DNA of 64,000 nucleotides from a virus: the IMG/VR virus record IMGVR_UViG_3300035070_002905, positions 1 to 64,000 of that record, one strand, 5' to 3'. Position 1 is the stretch's first letter. The number at the start of each line of letters is the position of its first letter. The notes beneath the pieces were generated by a model, which saw only the letters and a list, made by a program, of their open reading frames with translations, had not been told where the DNA came from and did no database searches. Positions 2,895 to 49,817 of this stretch are shown in pieces. Made by a program: the position numbers and the translations under genes.

Positions 2895-3770
2895 ATGAAA
2901 AAACTTCTAGCTCTTTGCCTGTTGCTGACAGGTTGTACAAGCCCTCAGACAGAGAGCTGGAAAGAGGAGGCGGCTTCGGCCGCTTCTTGTCCTGCACCTG
3001 TCACCGTCGAGGTTCCCGTCGAGAAGATCGTCGAGGTCCCTGTTGAAAAAATCGTAAAGGTTCCCGTCGAGAAGATCGTCGAGGTTCCCGTGGAGAAAAT
3101 CGTCTATGTTACCAAAACCGAAACAGCCCAGTGTCCCAGCCCCAAGCCTGCCCCGAGCCCTAGTCCTAAAAAGCCTAAAGCCCCGAAGCCTAAAGCACCG
3201 AGCGAACAGCCATCCATCAAGGCACCAAAGCAGTACAACCACCCGCTAGACGATTCGGATAAGATGGTGTTCATGATGGGCACCGACGACTACGGACGCT
3301 ACCTGTACGGCGAAGGGGCTATCGCTCCTGGAACGTACAAGAAATTCCTTAAGTATGTAGCGTACTATAAAGAGCAGGGTACTCCTGTAAGCCGCTTAAT
3401 GATGAACAGCCCGGGCGGTTCTATGCGAGAGGGTATTCTAATCGGAGAGTACTTACACGAGAACAACTGGACTACCGATAGCGATAAGCATATGAGCTGC
3501 TATTCTTCATGTGGGATTATCTACATGGGGGGCGTTAAGAAACGCATGCAGTCTGGAGCTCAGGTAGGATTCCACCGTCCGTATATGCCGGGACAGGCAG
3601 ATACTCCGGCGTTCATCAAAGATATGTACCATACGTATAAGCCCTATTGGGAGTACGTAAATGGCTCGCCGTTATTGTACGATGAGTTCATGACTAAATA
3701 CGACCGTGATATGATGCTAGTTATCATGGCGGAAACTGCAAGACAATTTATTAATGTTGAGGTATATTAA
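2895..3770 (+). CDS. periplasmic lipoprotein with ClpP-superfamily (COG3904-like) protease domain
   Basis: 291 residues. Residues 1-14 form a lipoprotein signal ending in the lipobox LTGC (Cys14). Residues 37-72 carry four copies of a VPVEKIV heptad-like repeat, then a Pro/Lys-rich linker (about 80-110), then a ClpP/crotonase-fold domain. That domain shows NSPGGSMREG (171-180, oxyanion loop), CYSSCGIIYMGGVKKR (202-217; Ser204 aligns with the nucleophile of the CxSxC motif in COG3904 proteins) and GFHRPY (His227). Such proteins are periplasmic serine proteases or protease-like proteins. The repeat-plus-linker stalk would let an acylated protein reach across the periplasm. It overlaps the downstream membrane gene by one base (TAATG). 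The protease assignment is from motifs; target unknown. Confidence 0.75.
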   Translation: MKKLLALCLLLTGCTSPQTESWKEEAASAASCPAPVTVEVPVEKIVEVPVEKIVKVPVEKIVEVPVEKIVYVTKTETAQCPSPKPAPSPSPKKPKAPKPKAPSEQPSIKAPKQYNHPLDDSDKMVFMMGTDDYGRYLYGEGAIAPGTYKKFLKYVAYYKEQGTPVSRLMMNSPGGSMREGILIGEYLHENNWTTDSDKHMSCYSSCGIIYMGGVKKRMQSGAQVGFHRPYMPGQADTPAFIKDMYHTYKPYWEYVNGSPLLYDEFMTKYDRDMMLVIMAETARQFINVEVY

Positions 3771-6862: not shown

Positions 6863-7339
6863 ATGAAAAAATCTATCCTAGCTCTACTTGCTGTTTCTGC
6901 ACTTTCTACTTCTGCTTTCGCTGCTGGTATTAACAAAGGTGACTCTGTCTCTGACGACCTGCGCTTCCAGGAAAAGGTAGTTCGTGTTTGCGGTATCAAG
7001 TCAGCAAGCGATGTAGGCACAATCAAGTTCGGTAATGAAAACGGTACTCAAGAAGCTGCCGCTAAGTTCATCGTAGTTGATAATGGTGCTCATAAGTCTG
7101 ATGGCCAGACTGAAATCTCTATCAATACAAAGCGTATGTCAGAGAACTTAGAGCTGGCAGGTGCGACTGTGAAGTACGCAGTGAACAACATCTACGATCC
7201 GCGTGATAGCATTAACCACGCTCCTGTTTCAGTAGGTGTTACGCAAGAAGTATTCGCAACTGTTGACTCTGATAAAACCCTAGTGAATACTGGCGTTGCA
7301 CGAATCAAAGCAGTTGTAGAAGTACATTGCGGTAACTAA
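6863..7339 (+). CDS. secreted pilin-like protein 1
   Basis: 158 residues with a textbook Sec signal (MKKSILALLAVSALSTSAFA). The mature part has two Cys (RVCGIK near 45, VHCGN at the end), a GTIKFGNENG strand and a C-terminal beta strand, the layout of fimbrial-subunit or spore-coat-U-like Ig folds. RBS GGAG lies 8 bases upstream. It is first of three tandem relatives with the same signal/Cys layout. It could decorate the cell surface or act in the periplasm. The fimbrial fold is inferred from pattern, not proven. Confidence 0.6.
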   Translation: MKKSILALLAVSALSTSAFAAGINKGDSVSDDLRFQEKVVRVCGIKSASDVGTIKFGNENGTQEAAAKFIVVDNGAHKSDGQTEISINTKRMSENLELAGATVKYAVNNIYDPRDSINHAPVSVGVTQEVFATVDSDKTLVNTGVARIKAVVEVHCGN

Positions 7340-7351
7340 GAACCTTGCAAG

Positions 7352-7369
7352 GGGCGTAGAGATGCGCCC
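7352..7369 (+). terminator. weak hairpin between pilin-like genes
   Basis: GGGCG-tagagatg-CGCCC forms a 5-bp GC stem, 12 bases after the stop of the first pilin-like gene. There is no proper T tract (AACTTTAACTT follows), so it is more likely an RNA-stability or attenuating hairpin than a full terminator. Confidence 0.35.
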
Positions 7370-7404
7370 AACTTTAACTTAAATTTAATGATCTGGAGAT
7401 CAAT

Positions 7405-7824
7405 ATGAAAAAGACTATCCTAGCTGTAATCCTTGCTGCAACTTCATTCGGTTCTTTCGCTGCTACTTCTGACAATCTTACATTTACTGCTACCGTTCCT
7501 GCGACGTGTGGCATTGCGATTACCGACGGTGCAGGAACTCTACTCTTTAAGGATGATACCGGTCCTACGGATACAGAGTTCACCCTATCAAGTAATGTAG
7601 CCGACGGTAGAATTAATGTAACGCCTTCTATCACCACGAAAGGTGGTATCGATAAAGACGACGTTGCGTTATCCGTAGCAGGAGGTGGAGTTCTAACTGA
7701 TAGCTCTACTGTCCACCTCGGTGCCGGTGAGTATAAAGCTCGAGCTAGCGTAAATACCTCTAAGAGTAGCGTGGCTGCCGGTGTGGTAGAAGCTGTAGTA
7801 ACTCTAGAAGTAAGCTGTAAATAA
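7405..7824 (+). CDS. secreted pilin-like protein 2
   Basis: 139 residues: signal peptide (MKKTILAVILAATSFGSFA), then TSDNLTFTATVPATCGIAI, the typical start of fimbrial or spore-coat-U-like domains with a first Cys after the opening strand, and a terminal EVSCK Cys. The GAGEYKARASV and VVEAVVTLEVSC strands support an Ig-like fold closed by a disulfide. It has the same leader (GATCTGGAGATCAA) before ATG as gene 1, so the tandem copies include their translation signals. A strong terminator follows. Confidence 0.65.
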   Translation: MKKTILAVILAATSFGSFAATSDNLTFTATVPATCGIAITDGAGTLLFKDDTGPTDTEFTLSSNVADGRINVTPSITTKGGIDKDDVALSVAGGGVLTDSSTVHLGAGEYKARASVNTSKSSVAAGVVEAVVTLEVSCK

Positions 7825-7831
7825 GTAATAT

Positions 7832-7868
7832 CCCCGTAGAACCCTAACCCGGTTCTACGGGGCCTTCT
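7832..7868 (+). terminator. rho-independent terminator
   Basis: A perfect 12-bp stem (CCCCGTAGAACC, 7832-7843) with a 7-base loop pairs with GGTTCTACGGGG (7851-7862) and is followed by a T-rich run. It ends the unit containing pilin-like genes 1 and 2; gene 3 lies 33 bases beyond, so readthrough or another promoter must serve it. Confidence 0.85.
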
Positions 7869-7895
7869 TTATTCTTTTTCTTTTCGGAGATCCAA

Positions 7896-8366
7896 ATGAA
7901 AAAACTAATTCTAGCTACAATCCTAGCTGCGACTTCACTCACTTCTGTTGCAGCAACTGACTCTAAGGGCCTATCCTTCAGCCATGTAGTCGACCCTACT
8001 TGCAGTATAGTCATTGAAAATTCTACTGGCTCTATCGAGTTTAACGACTCGGAAGTAAGAGAAGATACCATGGCTTGGGTGAAAGTACGTAGTAATGTAT
8101 CTAGTCACCTTGTTACTGTAAACATGTCAGAGGGGACTGCGTCAAGTAGTCTACAGGGGATGCCGTTCGACTACAAATTTTCCGGATCCTCTCAGGATAT
8201 AGGTAACGGTGTATACGTGGATGCGGGGGAAGATTTACAGGTTCCTATTAATCAGTATACTGGAGAGACTAGCTTGTGGGTAGCAGCATCAGTTAAAGCA
8301 GACTCGGCCTCTCTAGGTTCTGGTACTCACACTATTACCTCGACAATCACTGCAAACTGTAACTAG
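7896..8366 (+). CDS. secreted pilin-like protein 3
   Basis: 156 residues, signal peptide MKKLILATILAATSLTSVA, then GLSFSHVVDPTCSIVIENSTGSIEF with the first Cys near residue 38 and a terminal ITANCN Cys, matching the layout of the two upstream relatives. A CGGAG RBS precedes ATG. The mature sequences of the three proteins have diverged strongly while signal and disulfide positions are kept, which suggests selection for variation at the surface. Function unknown. Confidence 0.6.
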   Translation: MKKLILATILAATSLTSVAATDSKGLSFSHVVDPTCSIVIENSTGSIEFNDSEVREDTMAWVKVRSNVSSHLVTVNMSEGTASSSLQGMPFDYKFSGSSQDIGNGVYVDAGEDLQVPINQYTGETSLWVAASVKADSASLGSGTHTITSTITANCN

Positions 8367-14129: not shown

Positions 14130-15074
14130 ATGTTCGATAAAATTCAAGAAATTAAAGGTTCAGACGATAACGTAATCAAGTATGTCTTCGAGACTACCGG
14201 TGATAGCCCTGCGATCTTCGAAGCGGTACTATACAAGTATCCTACCTACGAAGAGCGTACAGTAATGTGCGTTAGCAGCCAGTCAGGTTGTCCGATGGGT
14301 TGTACCTTCTGTGGTACCGGTAAGTTCTTTAACCGTAACGCTACCGGTGATGAGATCCTAGAGCAGGTCGGCTACATGGCCGCTAAGAATAACATCGCCC
14401 TGCGTGACGTGGAGAAGCTGCAGATCATGGTGATGTCAATGGGTGAACCGGTACTTAACGCCGAGAACCTAGATCATGCCTTCGCTAATATCTACGAAGC
14501 AGTTCCGAATGCACAGCTATTGATCTCTACTGCTGCACCGCGTTCAGATCTCGGCTGGAAGATCATCATGAAGATGTGTGAGCGTATCCCTACGATCGGC
14601 CTACAGTTCAGCGTACACGATTCTACCAATGAAGCCCGTGACCTGATCATGCCGATGCGTGCCAAGTTAACTCTAGAGCAAATCGCCGAGAAGGGTGTAG
14701 AGTTCTACGAGCGTACCGGCCGCCGTCCGTTCTTCAACTACTGTGCACATGCAGGTAATGCTACTGAAGCCGATGCTGCACGATTGGCTACTATGTTCAA
14801 CCCTGAAATCTGGGAGGCCACTATCAGTGTAATCTGTGAAGCCGACGAGACTATGGCCGATGCCGTACAGAACCAGGAAGATATGGTTAACGGATTCTCC
14901 GGCATGCTGGTAGAGCGTGGCTTTAATACCCGTGTATTCAACCCGGCCGGTCAAGATGACATCGGGGGTGGATGTGGGCAACTATGGCAGGTCCAGAAGT
15001 GGGCCGAAGAAAACCCTGAGCTGATGAAGCAGTCGGCTGGTAATAAATGCCTGGAGCGTCGTAATGATTCTTAA
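14130..15074 (+). CDS. rlmN: RlmN/Cfr-like radical SAM RNA methyltransferase
   Basis: 314 residues. It carries the full mechanistic set of RlmN: Cys47-VSSQSG-Cys54 matches the E. coli C118...C125 spacing, Cys54-x3-Cys58-x2-Cys61 binds the 4Fe-4S cluster, GEPVLN (105-110) binds SAM, and DDIGGGCGQL places Cys282 at the position of the methyl-carrying Cys355. RlmN makes m2A2503 in 23S rRNA and m2A37 in some tRNAs; Cfr relatives make C8-methyl A2503. The protein lacks most of the N-terminal accessory domain of bacterial RlmN (384 residues in E. coli). Substrate in the phage is unknown; its own tRNAs are candidates. It overlaps the next gene by 11 bases. Confidence 0.85.
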   Translation: MFDKIQEIKGSDDNVIKYVFETTGDSPAIFEAVLYKYPTYEERTVMCVSSQSGCPMGCTFCGTGKFFNRNATGDEILEQVGYMAAKNNIALRDVEKLQIMVMSMGEPVLNAENLDHAFANIYEAVPNAQLLISTAAPRSDLGWKIIMKMCERIPTIGLQFSVHDSTNEARDLIMPMRAKLTLEQIAEKGVEFYERTGRRPFFNYCAHAGNATEADAARLATMFNPEIWEATISVICEADETMADAVQNQEDMVNGFSGMLVERGFNTRVFNPAGQDDIGGGCGQLWQVQKWAEENPELMKQSAGNKCLERRNDS

Positions 15075-16226: not shown

Positions 16227-16460
16227 ATGACACTAGATGAGCTATGGACGGCTCTAGGAAGTCATGACTGGTACTATGATATGTCGGAGGATCCTACCGT
16301 CTATCGTGCCGGTCGTGCAGAAGGAGGTCGCCTGTTCGCGGCCTCTGGACAATCTGAAGAGCATATGCAGATGTATATCGCTTACCAAAAATTCGTATGG
16401 GGCAACGGCCCTGAACCAAAGAGAGAAGACTATGTTTACAGTAACGACTTACTTGCGTGA
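16227..16460 (+). CDS. hypothetical protein, 77 aa
   Basis: ATG 16227 follows AAGGA (16216-16220); the longer frame from 16161 lies within the previous gene. Small acidic, aromatic protein (TALGSHDWYYDMSEDP). Its 3' end overlaps the Prs-like gene by 29 bases, so it is probably coupled to it. Confidence 0.55.
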   Translation: MTLDELWTALGSHDWYYDMSEDPTVYRAGRAEGGRLFAASGQSEEHMQMYIAYQKFVWGNGPEPKREDYVYSNDLLA

Positions 16461-17265
16461 TAATACAATCGTTGAAGAAGTAGAAACCTTCACATTCCCT
16501 GGCGGCGAAGTACAAGTGCGCCTTCCTCTACGTCCGTCAGATGAAGATCCTGTCGAGTGCGTGATCTCTGCTCAGATGATGCGTCCGGAAGATGCGTTCA
16601 CTCTGGCCCTAGTTAAAGGTGCAGTAGAAGCCCGCTACCCTGGCGTAGATATTAGCCTGCGTATGGCTTACGTTCCGTACGCTCGTCAGGACCGTGTATG
16701 CGTTGAAGGTGAGGCTCCGGCTGCACGAGTATTCTGTGAGTTCATTAACTCGTTGAATTTCCGTACGGTTAACATCATGGATCCTCATTCAGATGTAGTC
16801 GGCGCGGTACTAGATCGAGTGGTCATTACCGACCGCAACGATGTAATCCCTGGGACTTCTTTCGGTGAGATGATGCTGCACATCGAAGACGCTGTACTGG
16901 TTAGTCCGGATGCCGGCGCTAATAAGAAGACGTTCGAGCTGGCGTACGATTTAACCGTGCCGATGATTCGTGCCGATAAGAAGCGCTGTGTACGTACCGG
17001 CGATATCCTTGAGACGGAAGTCTTCGGTGATGTAGAAGGTAAGGTCTGCTTCATTGCAGATGATATTGCCGATGGCGGTGCTACATTCATGTTCCTTGCG
17101 CGTGCTCTGAAAGAGAAGGGTGCTGCAGAGGTTCACCTATGGGTTACCCACGGTATCTTCAGCAAGGGCGTAGAGTATCTGTTCGCGGATATCGATACGA
17201 TCCACACAACTAACTCATGGCCTCAAGATGAGATCTCTGGCCTACACGTAGAGGAAATCGTATGA
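16432..17265 (+). CDS. prs: ribose-phosphate pyrophosphokinase-like (Prs or Adps-type)
   Basis: 277 residues from ATG 16432. PRPP-synthetase features: MAYVPYARQDRV (79-89, ATP-binding flexible-loop start), MDPHSD (116-121), SPDAGANKK (158-166), and the PRPP loop CFIADDIADGGATF (206-219). Bacterial Prs makes PRPP from ribose-5-phosphate and ATP; it is about 315 residues, so this is a short form. In the described phage NAD-reconstitution pathway NARP1 a Prs-like enzyme (Adps) instead pyrophosphorylates ADP-ribose, working with a NAMPT-like partner. The NAMPT-like gene one position downstream makes that reading possible. Sequence alone does not settle the substrate. Confidence 0.88.
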   Translation: MFTVTTYLRDNTIVEEVETFTFPGGEVQVRLPLRPSDEDPVECVISAQMMRPEDAFTLALVKGAVEARYPGVDISLRMAYVPYARQDRVCVEGEAPAARVFCEFINSLNFRTVNIMDPHSDVVGAVLDRVVITDRNDVIPGTSFGEMMLHIEDAVLVSPDAGANKKTFELAYDLTVPMIRADKKRCVRTGDILETEVFGDVEGKVCFIADDIADGGATFMFLARALKEKGAAEVHLWVTHGIFSKGVEYLFADIDTIHTTNSWPQDEISGLHVEEIV

Positions 17266-18041
17266 GCCTAGCTAAACTTAAGGAAGCCTTTGGGAACGAC
17301 GGCGATGCACCTCTTAGTAGCCTACTTCGCCATAAGCGTTACATGGAGATCTACCCTTTCATCTATATCGAGAAGGGGTTGGCTCGTAAGGAGTTAGAGC
17401 TTAACATGGTCCTCTGTAAGTCTAAGGAAGACCTTGAGTACAGCGAAGAGCATGGCCATATGATGTACGTCGGGTCTGGTCGTCATGAATTCAAAGTGAC
17501 TACCTGTACGGCAGATGATCAGGCCGAGTTCGACGAGTTCGTAGAAGGCTGGTACAATACGGCCGACCTTCCTCGACCTGATCCTATGGTTCCAGTCGTC
17601 CAGGATATCATCGATCTACCGGTACTCAGTACTCGTACGATCGGCGAGGTAGCTATGGCCTTCGACGACGATGTACTATTCGACATTCAGTACTCGGCTA
17701 CGCAGTCGATCTACGAAGAGCATCCTGATGTTAAGATCGAAAAGATCATGCAGTACACTACTGAGTACGGTAAGTACGGCCAGGAAGTCTACCGTCTAGC
17801 TTACTTCGGTAAGGTGTTCGGATTCCTTACTAGCTCTGGTAAATACCTAGATACATACACTGCGTATATTCTAGACGAGCACACTTATAAGTGTTTCTGT
17901 ACGATGCTCGAAAATGAATACTGGGAGAAAGACGAGTGGACTGGTACCGCTGAACTTACTCCCGACTCTCCACTAACATTCTTAAGCGACCAACTGCTAG
18001 ATGCTCTAGCGGAAGGCGACTCAATCGATCAAACTCATTAA
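17262..18041 (+). CDS. hypothetical protein between Prs- and NAMPT-like genes
   Basis: 259 residues, acidic and soluble, starting in an ATGA overlap with the Prs-like gene and ending 10 bases before the NAMPT-like gene. No motif I recognise. Its position inside a NAD-related operon suggests an accessory or regulatory part in that pathway, which is inference from context only. Confidence 0.7.
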   Translation: MSLAKLKEAFGNDGDAPLSSLLRHKRYMEIYPFIYIEKGLARKELELNMVLCKSKEDLEYSEEHGHMMYVGSGRHEFKVTTCTADDQAEFDEFVEGWYNTADLPRPDPMVPVVQDIIDLPVLSTRTIGEVAMAFDDDVLFDIQYSATQSIYEEHPDVKIEKIMQYTTEYGKYGQEVYRLAYFGKVFGFLTSSGKYLDTYTAYILDEHTYKCFCTMLENEYWEKDEWTGTAELTPDSPLTFLSDQLLDALAEGDSIDQTH

Positions 18042-18051
18042 GGAAATCATC

Positions 18052-20058
18052 ATGGAAATTACACTAGAACAGCTACGCGCAAACTACCTAGAAGCAGCAA
18101 TGGTATTCGAAGTACCTGCAGAAGCAATGACTGACTCTTACAAGATCGGTATGTCTATGCTACACGAACTAAGCATCTTCGGTTGCCTGGTAGAGATCGC
18201 TAACTCGTACTCTAACTTCACTCCTCGTAAGAATGCCTACATGGAATTCTGTGAGCTGAGCGATGAGCACATCGTCGTGTACGGTACTCGTGAGAGCTAC
18301 CAGGTGATCGTCGATATGTGGGACCGTACGTTCTTCAAGGTAGACCAGAAGCTGGCTATGAAGCGTCTGCGTCGTCGTACCCGTAACCACTTCGGTTCAA
18401 TTGCAGAGCACAGTAAGTTCCTGCACGATATGAAGTCGCTGCACGACCTAGGCTACCTGCCGCTTGAAGTCCGTGCGATTGACGAAGGTACTAAGTACCC
18501 GATCGGTCTGCCGGTATTCACCGTTAAGGCTACAGTAGACGGCTACGGCTGGTTGGTGAACTTTACCGAGACGTTATCGTCAGGTCTGATCTGGCCGATG
18601 ATCAACACGGCTACTAAGATCGAGCAGTTCTTCCTACAGGCTAAACACTACGGTGAGCTGTCTGCACCTCAGGAAGTAGTTGACATGTGGCTACCTATCT
18701 GTATCCACGAGTTCGGTATGCGCGGCTACCGTGGTCCTCAGGATCAGATCCGTACATCTTCGTGTCATAACCTGTTCTTCCTCGGTTCAGATACGATCGG
18801 TACAATCGACTTCTTCGAGCACTACTACGGCGCCGACTCGGATACCGCTCCGATTGCCGTAAGTGTACGTGCCTCTGAGCATGCAGATATCAGCCGTATG
18901 CTGAGCCTGTTCCGCCATATCGCACAGAAGGCAATTGACGAAGATGCGATTACCCATAAGTGTGTGGCGGTAATGAAGACTGCAGAGGAGCAGGCTAACT
19001 TCAAGATCTCTACTCTAGGAGAAGGAGAGTGCGTTAAGGGTTACCGTGGAGGTTACTTTGAGAATATCGATGAAGATCCTGCAGAGGTCTTCCCGATCCA
19101 TGTCGATCCTCAGGATGTTCTGGATAATACTGAGTTCTACGTGCTGAAATACTTCGTAGATAATTCTACCGGCATCATGTCGTATGTATCTGATACGGAG
19201 AACTACTACCGCCTGCTTAACGAGTACGGTGCGCAACTTAAGGGTGCTATCGAGAACCGTGAAGCTCGTGAAGACGGTCAACCGCCTATCCTCGTGTTCC
19301 GTCCCGATAGCTCTCGCCATACTCCTCTTAACGTAATCTGTGGTTACCAGATCTTCGAGCATATGAGCGATTACTCTAAGGGTGATTACGTTACGTATGA
19401 TAATCGACATGATGATAACATCGTCGTCAAGAATGGTAAAGGCGAGTACTACCTTGCGAAGTTCAGCGGATGGGCTCCGGGCAAGTATCACTACTTGATC
19501 GGTGAACAGATCACTAAAGAAGAAGCGCAGGGTTCACTGGTAAGCCTATGGAATACCTTCGGTGGTGCAGAAGTGGAAACTCCTGCCGGTCTGATGAAGT
19601 TGATTAATCCTGCAGTAGGCTTGATCTACGGCGAGGCTATCAGCCAGAAGCACCAGAAGGAGATCTACGAGCGCATGATCGAGATGGGCTTCTCTGCAGT
19701 TAACGTATTGATGGGCAAGGGTTCTTATGCTTCGCTTGAGAATTCTACACGTGACCTATTCTCTATGTCGTACAAGCAGACGTTCTCTGAAGCGATCATC
19801 GACGGCGAACGCGTTAACCTTGAGCAGCAGAAGACTCCGATGGGAGACATGAGCAAGAAGTCGGCTAAGGGTCTACTATGTGTACCTTACGTAGATCCGC
19901 TACTAGGGTTCGTCTTAGAGCAGGAAGTTAGCGAAGAGCGTGAGCAGGAAGGTTGCTTGACTCTGCTACTGCGCAACGGCGTATTCTACAAGAACCAGAC
20001 GTTGGATGATATCAAAGCCAACTACGCGTCTAACACTTACTACCACCTGGAGAAGTAA
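18052..20058 (+). CDS. nadV: nicotinamide phosphoribosyltransferase-like (NadV/Namat-type)
   Basis: 668 residues. NAMPT-family hallmarks: NSYSNFTPRKNAY near 48 (substrate-binding start), KIEQF after a PMINTATK segment, HEFGMRGYRG near 219, SVRASEHADISRML near 272, FRPDSSRHT near 416, and GLIYGEAIS near 524 followed by a FSAVNVLMGKGSY glycine loop. These enzymes join nicotinamide to PRPP to make NMN. The protein is about 170 residues longer than usual NadV/NAMPT (460-500). In the NARP1 pathway the NAMPT-like enzyme (Namat) joins nicotinamide to ADP-ribose pyrophosphate to give NAD directly. The AAGGA RBS at 18041-18045 and operon with a Prs-like gene support a joint role. Confidence 0.88.
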   Translation: MEITLEQLRANYLEAAMVFEVPAEAMTDSYKIGMSMLHELSIFGCLVEIANSYSNFTPRKNAYMEFCELSDEHIVVYGTRESYQVIVDMWDRTFFKVDQKLAMKRLRRRTRNHFGSIAEHSKFLHDMKSLHDLGYLPLEVRAIDEGTKYPIGLPVFTVKATVDGYGWLVNFTETLSSGLIWPMINTATKIEQFFLQAKHYGELSAPQEVVDMWLPICIHEFGMRGYRGPQDQIRTSSCHNLFFLGSDTIGTIDFFEHYYGADSDTAPIAVSVRASEHADISRMLSLFRHIAQKAIDEDAITHKCVAVMKTAEEQANFKISTLGEGECVKGYRGGYFENIDEDPAEVFPIHVDPQDVLDNTEFYVLKYFVDNSTGIMSYVSDTENYYRLLNEYGAQLKGAIENREAREDGQPPILVFRPDSSRHTPLNVICGYQIFEHMSDYSKGDYVTYDNRHDDNIVVKNGKGEYYLAKFSGWAPGKYHYLIGEQITKEEAQGSLVSLWNTFGGAEVETPAGLMKLINPAVGLIYGEAISQKHQKEIYERMIEMGFSAVNVLMGKGSYASLENSTRDLFSMSYKQTFSEAIIDGERVNLEQQKTPMGDMSKKSAKGLLCVPYVDPLLGFVLEQEVSEEREQEGCLTLLLRNGVFYKNQTLDDIKANYASNTYYHLEK

Positions 20059-30198: not shown

Positions 30199-30482
30199 TA
30201 ATCCAAATGCCGCAACAGGCTCCTGAGCCGATATTCGATCAGGATGGTAATGAACTGCCGCCGAATATCGCCGAGCAGGAGTTCGTGGAATGGCTGCGAG
30301 GTAAGTTGGATGAATTCATCCCGCACCTCAAAGCTGTCTGCGAGGAAAAGAAGTTATACTTCAAGGAGTTAGGATTCGATCAGATGCAGAATGGTCCAGT
30401 CTTTCAAGTTGAAGATGAAGAGTACGTGATCTACAAAGATGGGTTCACGGTTGGTTGGCGTTATGTAGGGAAAGTAGCATGA
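30195..30482 (+). CDS. hypothetical acidic protein, 95 aa
   Basis: Pro-rich acidic start, helical middle ([21 protein letters not shown]). Its last codons overlap the ATG of nadE, so the two are translationally coupled. No motif recognised. Confidence 0.6.
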
Positions 30483-31291
30483 AACAGCAAATTTTAGCAG
30501 AAATGAAAGTTAAACCAGAGATCCACGTAGACGAAGAAGTACGTAAGCGCGTGGATTTCCTTAAGTACAATCTAACCGAGACGGGTATGAGAACGTTGGT
30601 ACTGGGTATTAGCGGCGGCGTAGACTCCACGGTCTGCGGCAAGTTATGTCAGATGGCCGTCAACGAGCTCGGCAGCGACTACCGCTTCATTGCAGTACGT
30701 CTGCCACACGGCGTCCAGGCCGATGAAGATGATGCTCAGGATGCTCTGAAGTTCATCAACCCGAGCAAGGTCGTTACCATTGACGTCGAGCCTGGTACTT
30801 CAGGTATTCACTTCGCTACCATGAGCGCTCTATGGGCTGCCGGCGAGGAGGGTGTTACTAAGAAGAACATCGACTTCGTTAAGGGTAATGTAAAGGCCCG
30901 CATGCGCATGATCGCCCAGTACGAGATCGCCGGTCTAACCAACGGGCTTGTAGTAGGTACCGATCATTCAGCTGAAGCGGTAGTAGGCTTCTATACCAAG
31001 CACGGCGATGGTGCCTGCGATCTGGCTCCGCTGTTCGGTCTGAATAAGCGTCAGGTTCGTTCGCTGGGCGAGTATCTAGGTGCTCCCGACTACCTATTCA
31101 ATAAGGAGGCTACCGCAGATCTTGAAGAAGATAAAGAGCAGCTTCCCGATGAACAGGCCCTCGGTCTGGACTACGACGAGATCGATGACTTCCTAGAGGG
31201 TCGCGAGGTCTCCGACTCGGCTGACGATACGATCGTCGGCTGGTATCTAACGACGCAGCATAAGCGTCATCCTGCACGAACTCCGGAGTAG
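30479..31291 (+). CDS. nadE: NAD synthetase, ammonia-type
   Basis: 270 residues from ATG 30479, close to E. coli NadE (275). [12 protein letters not shown] (40-51) is the N-type ATP pyrophosphatase P-loop (SGGxDS). [23 protein letters not shown] and [14 protein letters not shown] are strongly diagnostic of NadE, as is [17 protein letters not shown] near the end. It amidates deamido-NAD to NAD. There is no glutaminase domain, so it uses ammonia. With the Prs/NAMPT pair it gives the phage a second entry into NAD synthesis. Confidence 0.93.
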
Positions 31292-48325: not shown

Positions 48326-49209
48326 AGAAACTATTAGCACTTGCACTATTCACACCTATGGCTTTCGCTATGCCTACCGACCTTGCAGATATCTGTGAGA
48401 ACCCTGTAGTTCTACCTGCAGTAGTCGAGTACGCCGAGTGGAAGTATGCTCAGCCTGAGAACATCACGCTGGATCTATTGGAGAGCCGTCCTGGTGGAAG
48501 CTGGAAGGAGAAGGGTAAGCAACTCTTCAAGGACGTCCGTACCGAGAACGACAAGATCGCGATGCGCCTAGAAGAGTACCTAGATGTAGCCGACTATGAA
48601 GTAGCCGACCGCGTACTCGTTAAATTCGTCAAGATCAACGGTTCGATCCAGGGAGATAAGGAAGTCGAAGAACTATGTAACGTAGTCTACTCGGCCGAGC
48701 AGTTCCGTACCTACCAGGCCCGTCGTGTCGGACAGCTTAACGATGTAAGCTACAAGATCGATCAACTAGTAGTGAACCAGCCGGTTACCGTACACGAGCA
48801 CGCTCAGGTTAAGCGTGCCGAGATCGCGAAGGCCGAGCAGGAACGTAAGGCTAAGGAAGAGGCGGCTATCCGTGAGGAGGCTAAGCAGGAGGCCCTTCGT
48901 CTAGAGGCGGAGATGGCCAAGAAGGAAGCTGCAGCTCGTGTGGCTGCCGAGAAGGCTAGGGCTAAAGATCTGCTGGAAGAGGAAGCCCTGAAGCTTACTA
49001 TGGAGCTCGAGCAGAACTACATGGTGATCGAGAACTCTGCGATTGAAGTAGAGAAACTTGAGCAGATCCGTGCCGAGCTAGTCGAGAAGCTTGACCTAGT
49101 TAATCAAGGCGTGGAAGGCGCTAAGAATCGTGCCGATCAAGCGAGCATGAATGCAAGTGGAATCAAAGTGGTCCTTAAGGGTCTTAAAGCTAAATTGGAG
49201 AAAATGTAA
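48322..49209 (+). CDS. exported coiled-coil protein, 295 aa
   Basis: Signal peptide MKKLLALALFTPMAFA. Residues 17-150 are a globular domain with a Cys pair (ICENP, LCNVV). Residues 165-295 are a long, highly charged Ala/Glu/Lys coiled coil (KAEQERKAKEEAAIREEAKQ) like that of TolA. Such a rod could span the periplasm. It follows two lipoproteins and may work with them. Overlaps the sspB-like gene by one base. Confidence 0.7.
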   Translation: MKKLLALALFTPMAFAMPTDLADICENPVVLPAVVEYAEWKYAQPENITLDLLESRPGGSWKEKGKQLFKDVRTENDKIAMRLEEYLDVADYEVADRVLVKFVKINGSIQGDKEVEELCNVVYSAEQFRTYQARRVGQLNDVSYKIDQLVVNQPVTVHEHAQVKRAEIAKAEQERKAKEEAAIREEAKQEALRLEAEMAKKEAAARVAAEKARAKDLLEEEALKLTMELEQNYMVIENSAIEVEKLEQIRAELVEKLDLVNQGVEGAKNRADQASMNASGIKVVLKGLKAKLEKM

Positions 49210-49766
49210 TGAAATATCGTTTACTAGAAGGTGTACTAAATGCAATTTGTGATGCCGGAAATACGCCTTATGTTAAGTGTTCTAACCTGCACCCTAACTA
49301 CCGTGGGCCTGAAGAATACGCTGTGGCTGGCTTTACCATTCACGCTATAGGTGGCAATGATGTCACTCACTTCGGTCTTGACGAGAACGGGATCTGCTTC
49401 CGTGCGTCATACAAAGGTGTAGCTCAAGACGTAACGCTTCCGCTAGATGGAATCTCTGCGCTCTACGCTAAGGAAGATCCTGAGATGGGTCTGCATTTCG
49501 ATGTAGCCGATGAGTTCCGAGATGTATTCTCAGAGCAGCAGATGGCAGCTGAACAGCAGGCGGTTACCATGTACGCTCACATCCTACAGCTACGCGATAA
49601 GCATGAGTTCTTCATGGAATCCGTAGAGACTCAGGGCGAGCAGCTACACGAGAAGCTGAAGGAGATCGTACGCTCGGCTCCTGCTCCGGCTCCTGCTCCG
49701 GCTCCTGACGAGTCTACCGGTTTCCGTAAGGAAGCTCATGTAGGCTGGAAGCCGCAAGTAGTATAA
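49209..49766 (+). CDS. sspB: SspB-like ClpXP adaptor
   Basis: 185 residues. Residues 2-100 follow SspB: YRLLEGVLNAICDAGNTPYV (helix plus strand start), PEEYAVAGFTIHAIGG, GICFRASYKGVAQDVTLPLDGISALYAKED, matching the SspB substrate-binding fold (FxGxxxxVxVPxxAVxAIYAxE). An acidic, Pro-rich linker (APAPAPAPAPDES) separates a short C-terminal tail (GWKPQVV) that could act like the ClpX-binding tail of SspB. SspB delivers ssrA-tagged proteins to ClpXP. A phage copy could redirect or block host proteolysis. Confidence 0.8.
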   Translation: MKYRLLEGVLNAICDAGNTPYVKCSNLHPNYRGPEEYAVAGFTIHAIGGNDVTHFGLDENGICFRASYKGVAQDVTLPLDGISALYAKEDPEMGLHFDVADEFRDVFSEQQMAAEQQAVTMYAHILQLRDKHEFFMESVETQGEQLHEKLKEIVRSAPAPAPAPAPDESTGFRKEAHVGWKPQVV

Positions 49767-49772
49767 AGCAAG

Positions 49773-49796
49773 AAGGGCACCCGTCTGGGTGCCCTT
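49773..49796. terminator. bidirectional terminator at convergent junction
   Basis: AAGGGCACCC-GTCT-GGGTGCCCTT, a perfect 10-bp stem. On the plus strand it is followed by a loose T-rich stretch, and on the minus strand by TGCTTTATAC. It separates the plus-strand genes from the minus-strand tail block. Confidence 0.8.
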
Positions 49797-49817
49797 CGCT
49801 TACTGCTTCTTTTTTCG

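Follow-up and report, generated by a model that had tools for sequence, protein, structure and literature searches.

In E. coli, sspB is linked to sspA. The ssrA tag recognised in the SspB system consists of an SspB half, AANDENY, and a ClpX half, ALAA (PMC8512704). A phage-encoded SspB as such is not new, being known as gp18 of Pseudomonas phage pf16 (2017), as gp39 of Erwinia phage RAY (2023) and from the phiKZ group. In the pf16 paper SspB was described as new to phages, and a competition with RseA was put forward from docking (PMC5587285), and a GFP fusion of RAY gp39 was found diffuse in the cytoplasm (PMC10299810). Our searches recovered further phage SspBs in LucasX, SNUABM_54, Psa21, PA1C, Phabio, NCTB, nACB2 and phiKZ (PHIKZ232) with its relatives, and structural matches in BFVD included Noxifer, phiA8-29, PhiPA3, PA7, 201phi2-1 and VAP7. 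The phiKZ protein gp232 (named only PHIKZ232 in its record; positions 1480-2388 of the stretch examined) matches phage SspB (E = 2e-7 to one phage SspB), is common to many phiKZ-group phages and ends in the ClpX-docking-like sequence TPKLTVIKGGKK. Matches labelled "Acinetobacter phage MD-2021a" and two Salmonella matches were set aside, since they look bacterial (MD-2021a carries an sspA-sspB operon beside rpsI).

An SspB-family protein in a large tailed phage

The window, that is the whole 64-kb stretch of DNA that was analysed, is the first part of a 172,110-base record from a large tailed phage. It contains an ORF whose ATG start overlaps the stop of the upstream gene, with the following features.

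49209..49766, plus strand: SspB-family protein, 185 aa, stop included (profile, PDB and fold matches)
49209..49502, plus strand: SspB substrate-binding domain, residues 1-98 (AlphaFold2 pLDDT mostly >90; SspB crystal structures matched by Foldseek and VIA-align)
49341..49409, plus strand: substitutions within and near the ssrA groove, H45, A46, D51 and S67 against E. coli L53, N54, A59 and R75 (alignment)
49509..49676, plus strand: long helix, residues 101-156 (AlphaFold2 secondary structure; by alignment absent from the D69, pf16 and RAY SspBs)
49677..49706, plus strand: Pro/Ala linker APAPAPAPAP, residues 157-166 (sequence; disordered in the model)
49707..49763, plus strand: C-terminal tail DESTGFRKEAHVGWKPQVV, where the ClpX-docking XB motif would be expected, with no match to the motif
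49772..49797, no strand assigned: hairpin resembling an intrinsic terminator, 11-pair stem, lying between the SspB gene and the tail-fibre genes that converge on it (consensus match only)

The identification of ORF 49209-49766 as an SspB homologue is firmly backed by sequence, profile and fold. The protein matched Pfam SspB (PF04386) with E = 3.4e-8 (33.5-34.1 bits, above the curated cut-off of 27) and PHROG family phrog_8945, "stringent starvation protein Sspb-like", with E = 1.3e-5, while SspB chains were the sole matches with E < 1e-2 when phmmer was run against the PDB; all of these matches lay inside residues 4-145. An AlphaFold2 model, built from an alignment of the phage protein with 26 bacterial and two other phage SspBs, had a mean pLDDT of 84 and comprised an SspB fold (residues 1-97), one helix (101-156) and disorder (157-185). 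The best Foldseek matches of the model were all SspB (1yfn, 1ou8 and 1ox9; TM 0.84-0.88 by target), VIA-align gave Z scores of 17-18 against SspB structures, and both programs placed the SspB-ssrA and SspB-RseA crystal structures among its neighbours; the 16 best PDB matches were SspB or its Agrobacterium/Caulobacter orthologues. By profile and by fold alike, the protein thus belongs to the SspB domain family (PF04386).

An earlier note on this DNA had recognised the substrate-binding fold of SspB over about 100 residues, which is borne out by the Pfam, PHROG and PDB sequence matches and by the model. Structure prediction, which the note had named beforehand as the analysis that might point to a different fold, returned the SspB fold, with Z about 18 over 103 residues against the E. 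coli and H. influenzae proteins (1ox9, 1ou8); relative to these, identity is 22-25%, and the groove-region residues, the dimer-helix Tyr and the XB tail differ. The Pro/Ala linker that it described is present at residues 157-166 as APAPAPAPAP, and the 55-residue helix is a feature that the note did not contain.

The SspB gene closes a plus-strand unit and is preceded there by two lipoprotein-like ORFs, a 73-aa ORF and a gene for a secreted coiled-coil-like protein. The gene directly upstream has a signal-peptide-like start, and with the two lipoprotein-like ORFs ahead this agrees with the previously noted position just downstream of exported proteins. Tail-fibre genes on the minus strand converge on the SspB gene. 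The closest relatives found were the Vibrio phages D69, D181 and D148; about 50 ORFs of the record match the first 100 kb of D69, collinear over much of it. D69 has an SspB-like gene, annotated "hypothetical", at the equivalent spot beside the same trypsin-like lipoprotein family and tail genes, and in both phages the gene ends a transcription unit converging with the tail-fibre genes. Its product in D69, D181 and D148 (VPHD69_0065) thus occupies an orthologous position, is 30-32% identical over the SspB domain, also has Ser at the groove Arg position and also has no canonical XB tail, but it has no 55-residue helix and its tail sequence is another. Many neighbouring genes are 45-77% identical between the two phages, compared with about 32% for SspB, indicating that the gene changes quickly yet is kept; a diverged copy at the same locus argues that it is maintained. 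A nucleotide search for phages with this DNA gave no match, IMG/VR scans for SspB relatives returned only pf16 and one 10-kb phage contig, and an IMG/VR scan with a structural protein of the phage returned one 17-kb contig.

Several other genes of the window deserve mention. A Radical SAM protein at 14130-15074 (Pfam E = 5.8e-7), which looks RlmN-like by sequence and has a CGTGKFFNRN stretch, is a candidate phage rRNA/tRNA methyltransferase. A putative NAD salvage set (16264-20058 and 30455-31291) comprises ribose-phosphate pyrophosphokinase-like, nicotinamide phosphoribosyltransferase-like (66% identical to D69) and NAD synthase (Pfam E = 6.5e-63) genes. The lipoprotein-like ORF at 2895-3770 has SPGGS and VGFHRP motifs resembling those of ClpP/SppA-type serine proteases, with no Pfam match, and at 6863-8366 there are three tandem secreted paralogues, pilin/adhesin-like in sequence and likewise with no Pfam match, which is not the usual cargo of tailed phages.

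Groove region, dimer helix and docking tail

The earlier note had called for a comparison of the ssrA-binding groove and the C-terminal tail with host SspB, and both comparisons were run, against bacterial and phage proteins. The alignment set comprised 80 gammaproteobacterial SspBs, 20 alpha-type SspBs and 14 phage SspBs, the window protein among the 14; the alpha-type set, presumed alphaproteobacterial, was the 20 lower-scoring SspBs of a phylum-wide sample. The Arg of the A-R-F motif (R75 in E. coli, R74 in H. influenzae) was present in 80/80 gammaproteobacterial SspBs and is S67 in the window protein. At E. coli L53, N54 and A59, which probably line the ssrA groove and are each at least 96% conserved among the 80 gammaproteobacterial SspBs, the window protein has H, A and D. 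Judged against these 80 proteins, conserved residues are replaced in the window protein (R75, L53, N54 and A59), and the canonical ssrA-groove residues, the A-R-F Arg included, are not kept.

Loss of the Arg at E. coli position 75 was seen in 9 of the 14 phage SspBs, the window protein included (S, S, A, S, A, S, A, T, T); RAY keeps the Arg, whereas pf16 has Ala. In the alpha-type set this position was R in 13/20 and S in 7/20, so that Arg loss by itself is compatible with function, and such variation between working lineages argues for a change of specificity over plain loss. H. influenzae SspB has one Arg only near position 73, which should therefore be the residue altered in the iLID "micro" variant R73Q; in iLID work, this substitution is said to weaken ssrA binding. 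R73Q has been named Micro (PMC8440521) and iLID micro has been called the weaker version (PMC8993538), but the same review lists R73Q as affinity-improving, as does PMC12774585. In the dimer helix, alignment pairs E. coli Y12 with R4, W20 with A12, L13 with L5 and D23 with D15 of the window protein.

The tail was scored with a position weight matrix built on the 80 bacterial tails, with shuffled sequences as control. The last eight residues of the window protein scored -17 bits compared to a bacterial median of 22, and an LRVVK-type XB motif was not detectable in the tail (best window p = 0.53 against shuffles). The earlier claim of a short tail in the place of the ClpX-binding motif thus holds for position, since DESTGFRKEAHVGWKPQVV occupies that place, but not for sequence, which fails to match the canonical XB motif. 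An LRVVK-like tail end was found in nearly all bacterial SspBs sampled and is kept in about ten of the 14 phage SspBs (nine by score, Psa21 by eye). These include, beside the shared SspB fold, canonical ClpX-docking tails in pf16 gp18 (KPTLRVVK) and RAY gp39 (KPTLTVVK), which the window protein does not have. In the same weight-matrix comparison the tails of D69 and LucasX were likewise without an LRVVK-type motif; the SspB-like protein of Xanthomonas phage LucasX (2953-3519 of the stretch examined) ends in SVSSMADFRARRKPSS, possibly another type of docking tail. A W-K-V pattern common to the window and D69 tails was considered and set aside as evidence. The GFRKE of the window tail, which we took to resemble alphaproteobacterial docking motifs, was dropped as a likeness because most alpha-type SspBs that we retrieved have LR(V/L)VK-like ends instead.

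With its groove changes, its lack of an LRVVK-like tail and its added helix, the protein is a member of the SspB domain family that cannot be classed as a canonical SspB adaptor. A retargeted adaptor, a decoy or some other role in peptide binding would each be consistent with the groove replacements and the missing XB tail.

An ssrA-like tail on a second phage protein

Outside the window, at 72018-72449 (+) of the genome record, a 143-aa protein has the C-terminus HASDENYALGA, identical at 8/11 residues to the ssrA tag AANDENYALAA and differing at positions 1, 3 and 10. Among the 241 ORFs of the 172-kb genome the next best end had 5 identities. With the phage's own composition, an ssrA identity of at least 8/11 would be expected 1.2e-5 times in 241 C-termini, a figure that takes the E. 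coli 11-residue tag as sole target and should be read as a guide rather than an exact probability, since several looser patterns were tried in the first look. An upstream tandem paralogue (71618-72031), overlapping the gene, is 39% identical and ends without the tag, and a hairpin and T-run lie downstream of the gene; on both counts HASDENYALGA is the end of a genuine protein.

ARAGORN detected no tmRNA in the phage, and since the ORF also aligns nearly full length to the upstream paralogue, a hidden tmRNA in place of a protein was ruled out. The pattern DENYA[LF][AG]A-stop had at least 119 other matches in IMG/VR, and among those listed 112 were in ARAGORN tmRNAs, 7 resembled tmRNA pieces and none was an evident protein gene. 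Borrowing from a known tmRNA tag was rejected because DENYA[LF]GA-stop occurred in 0/398 Pseudomonadota genomes; ASDENYA occurred in these genomes once, inside a protein. Searches of phage sequences and of IMG/VR found no relatives of the tagged protein beyond its own paralogue, and its AlphaFold2 model (pLDDT 38) is one for which we claim no fold. The tagged gene lies 22 kb from the SspB gene, in another transcription unit. NYA-x-[AG]A-stop had no match in D69 and seven other SspB phages, indicating that the pairing of SspB with a tag is not conserved.

We found no report in the literature of a built-in ssrA-like tag beside a phage SspB. To our knowledge, the tag systems of mycobacteriophages involve no phage SspB. 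In those integration-dependent phages, integrases and repressors likewise carry built-in ssrA-like degradation tags (PMC9635641), but the tail described here also retains most of the SspB-binding half (ASDENY).

Possible roles of the phage SspB

Our leading interpretation, held tentatively, is a degron-binding protein that has been retargeted and most probably works as an adaptor of ClpXP, docking by a non-canonical tail. The SspB fold would be retained as a peptide-binding domain whose groove, remodelled, would prefer a peptide other than the host AANDENY tag; preferred substrates would be handed to ClpXP through the tail at the end of the flexible linker, which may dock ClpX in its own way. 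The phage's own 143-aa HASDENYALGA protein is a candidate substrate, if the two phage proteins meet. We favour this reading because binding domain, flexible tether and short basic-hydrophobic tail are all retained, arranged as in an adaptor, and because working SspB lineages differ at groove positions; the D69 orthologue at the same locus, at 32% identity, counts for it also, as a fold kept under fast change. What speaks against an adaptor is that a canonical ClpX-docking tail is undetectable in both the window protein and D69, that dimer-helix positions differ (Y12 to R4, W20 to A12), and that the tag pairing is absent from D69 and the seven other SspB phages, with the tagged gene 22 kb off and without relatives in the collections searched. 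The narrower proposal, that an SspB with a re-cut groove and the bespoke HASDENYALGA degron would let the phage set the lifetime of the 143-aa protein through host ClpXP, independently of tmRNA, is rather unlikely. The suggestion in the earlier note that a viral SspB could steer ClpXP to defence proteins gained no support from this analysis.

A shield or decoy that binds degron tails and cannot dock ClpX, thereby hiding the HASDENYALGA protein, tmRNA-tagged products or both from ClpXP, is somewhat doubtful but follows closely behind the adaptor, given that the known docking motif is gone. The XB tail is missing in the window protein and D69 though kept by nearly all sampled bacterial and about ten of the 14 phage SspBs, and substituting alanine for it in P. 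aeruginosa SspB reduces the affinity for ClpX (27 nM before, 179 nM after; PMC13251409); a pure shield would, however, have no use for the retained tether and short tail, and the groove region is changed where binding of the host tag should weaken. Reuse of the fold outside proteolysis, as a peptide- or protein-binding module with the 55-residue helix as its main interaction and no link to ClpXP, is unlikely: the protein departs from canonical SspB in its groove region, its dimer helix and its docking tail, and a long helix has been added, but the fold itself is well kept and most other phage SspBs retain the ClpX tail, so that the role of the family in phages appears tied to ClpX. Least likely of all, and quite improbable, is an ordinary working SspB that, along the lines suggested for pf16 gp18, simply increases the delivery of ssrA-tagged or RseA-type substrates of the host, since beyond its SspB homology and the RseA competition that the pf16 authors proposed from docking (PMC5587285), the residue matching iLID R73 is replaced and the XB tail is absent, whereas pf16 gp18 ends in the canonical KPTLRVVK.

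Phage SspB genes have been noted since 2017, and in the literature that we found none has a tested substrate. What is unusual here is this copy, in which conserved groove-region positions are replaced, the docking tail is undetectable and a helix is added. For a retargeted adaptor, the phage protein with the near-ssrA tail is a concrete candidate substrate, which makes the rewiring of ClpXP by a phage's own adaptor testable with two genes and a GFP reporter. More widely, our alignments suggest that in phage SspBs the ClpX tail is often retained although the otherwise conserved tag-contacting Arg is lost, and this combination predicts a shift in substrate choice across large phages, including the phiKZ group.
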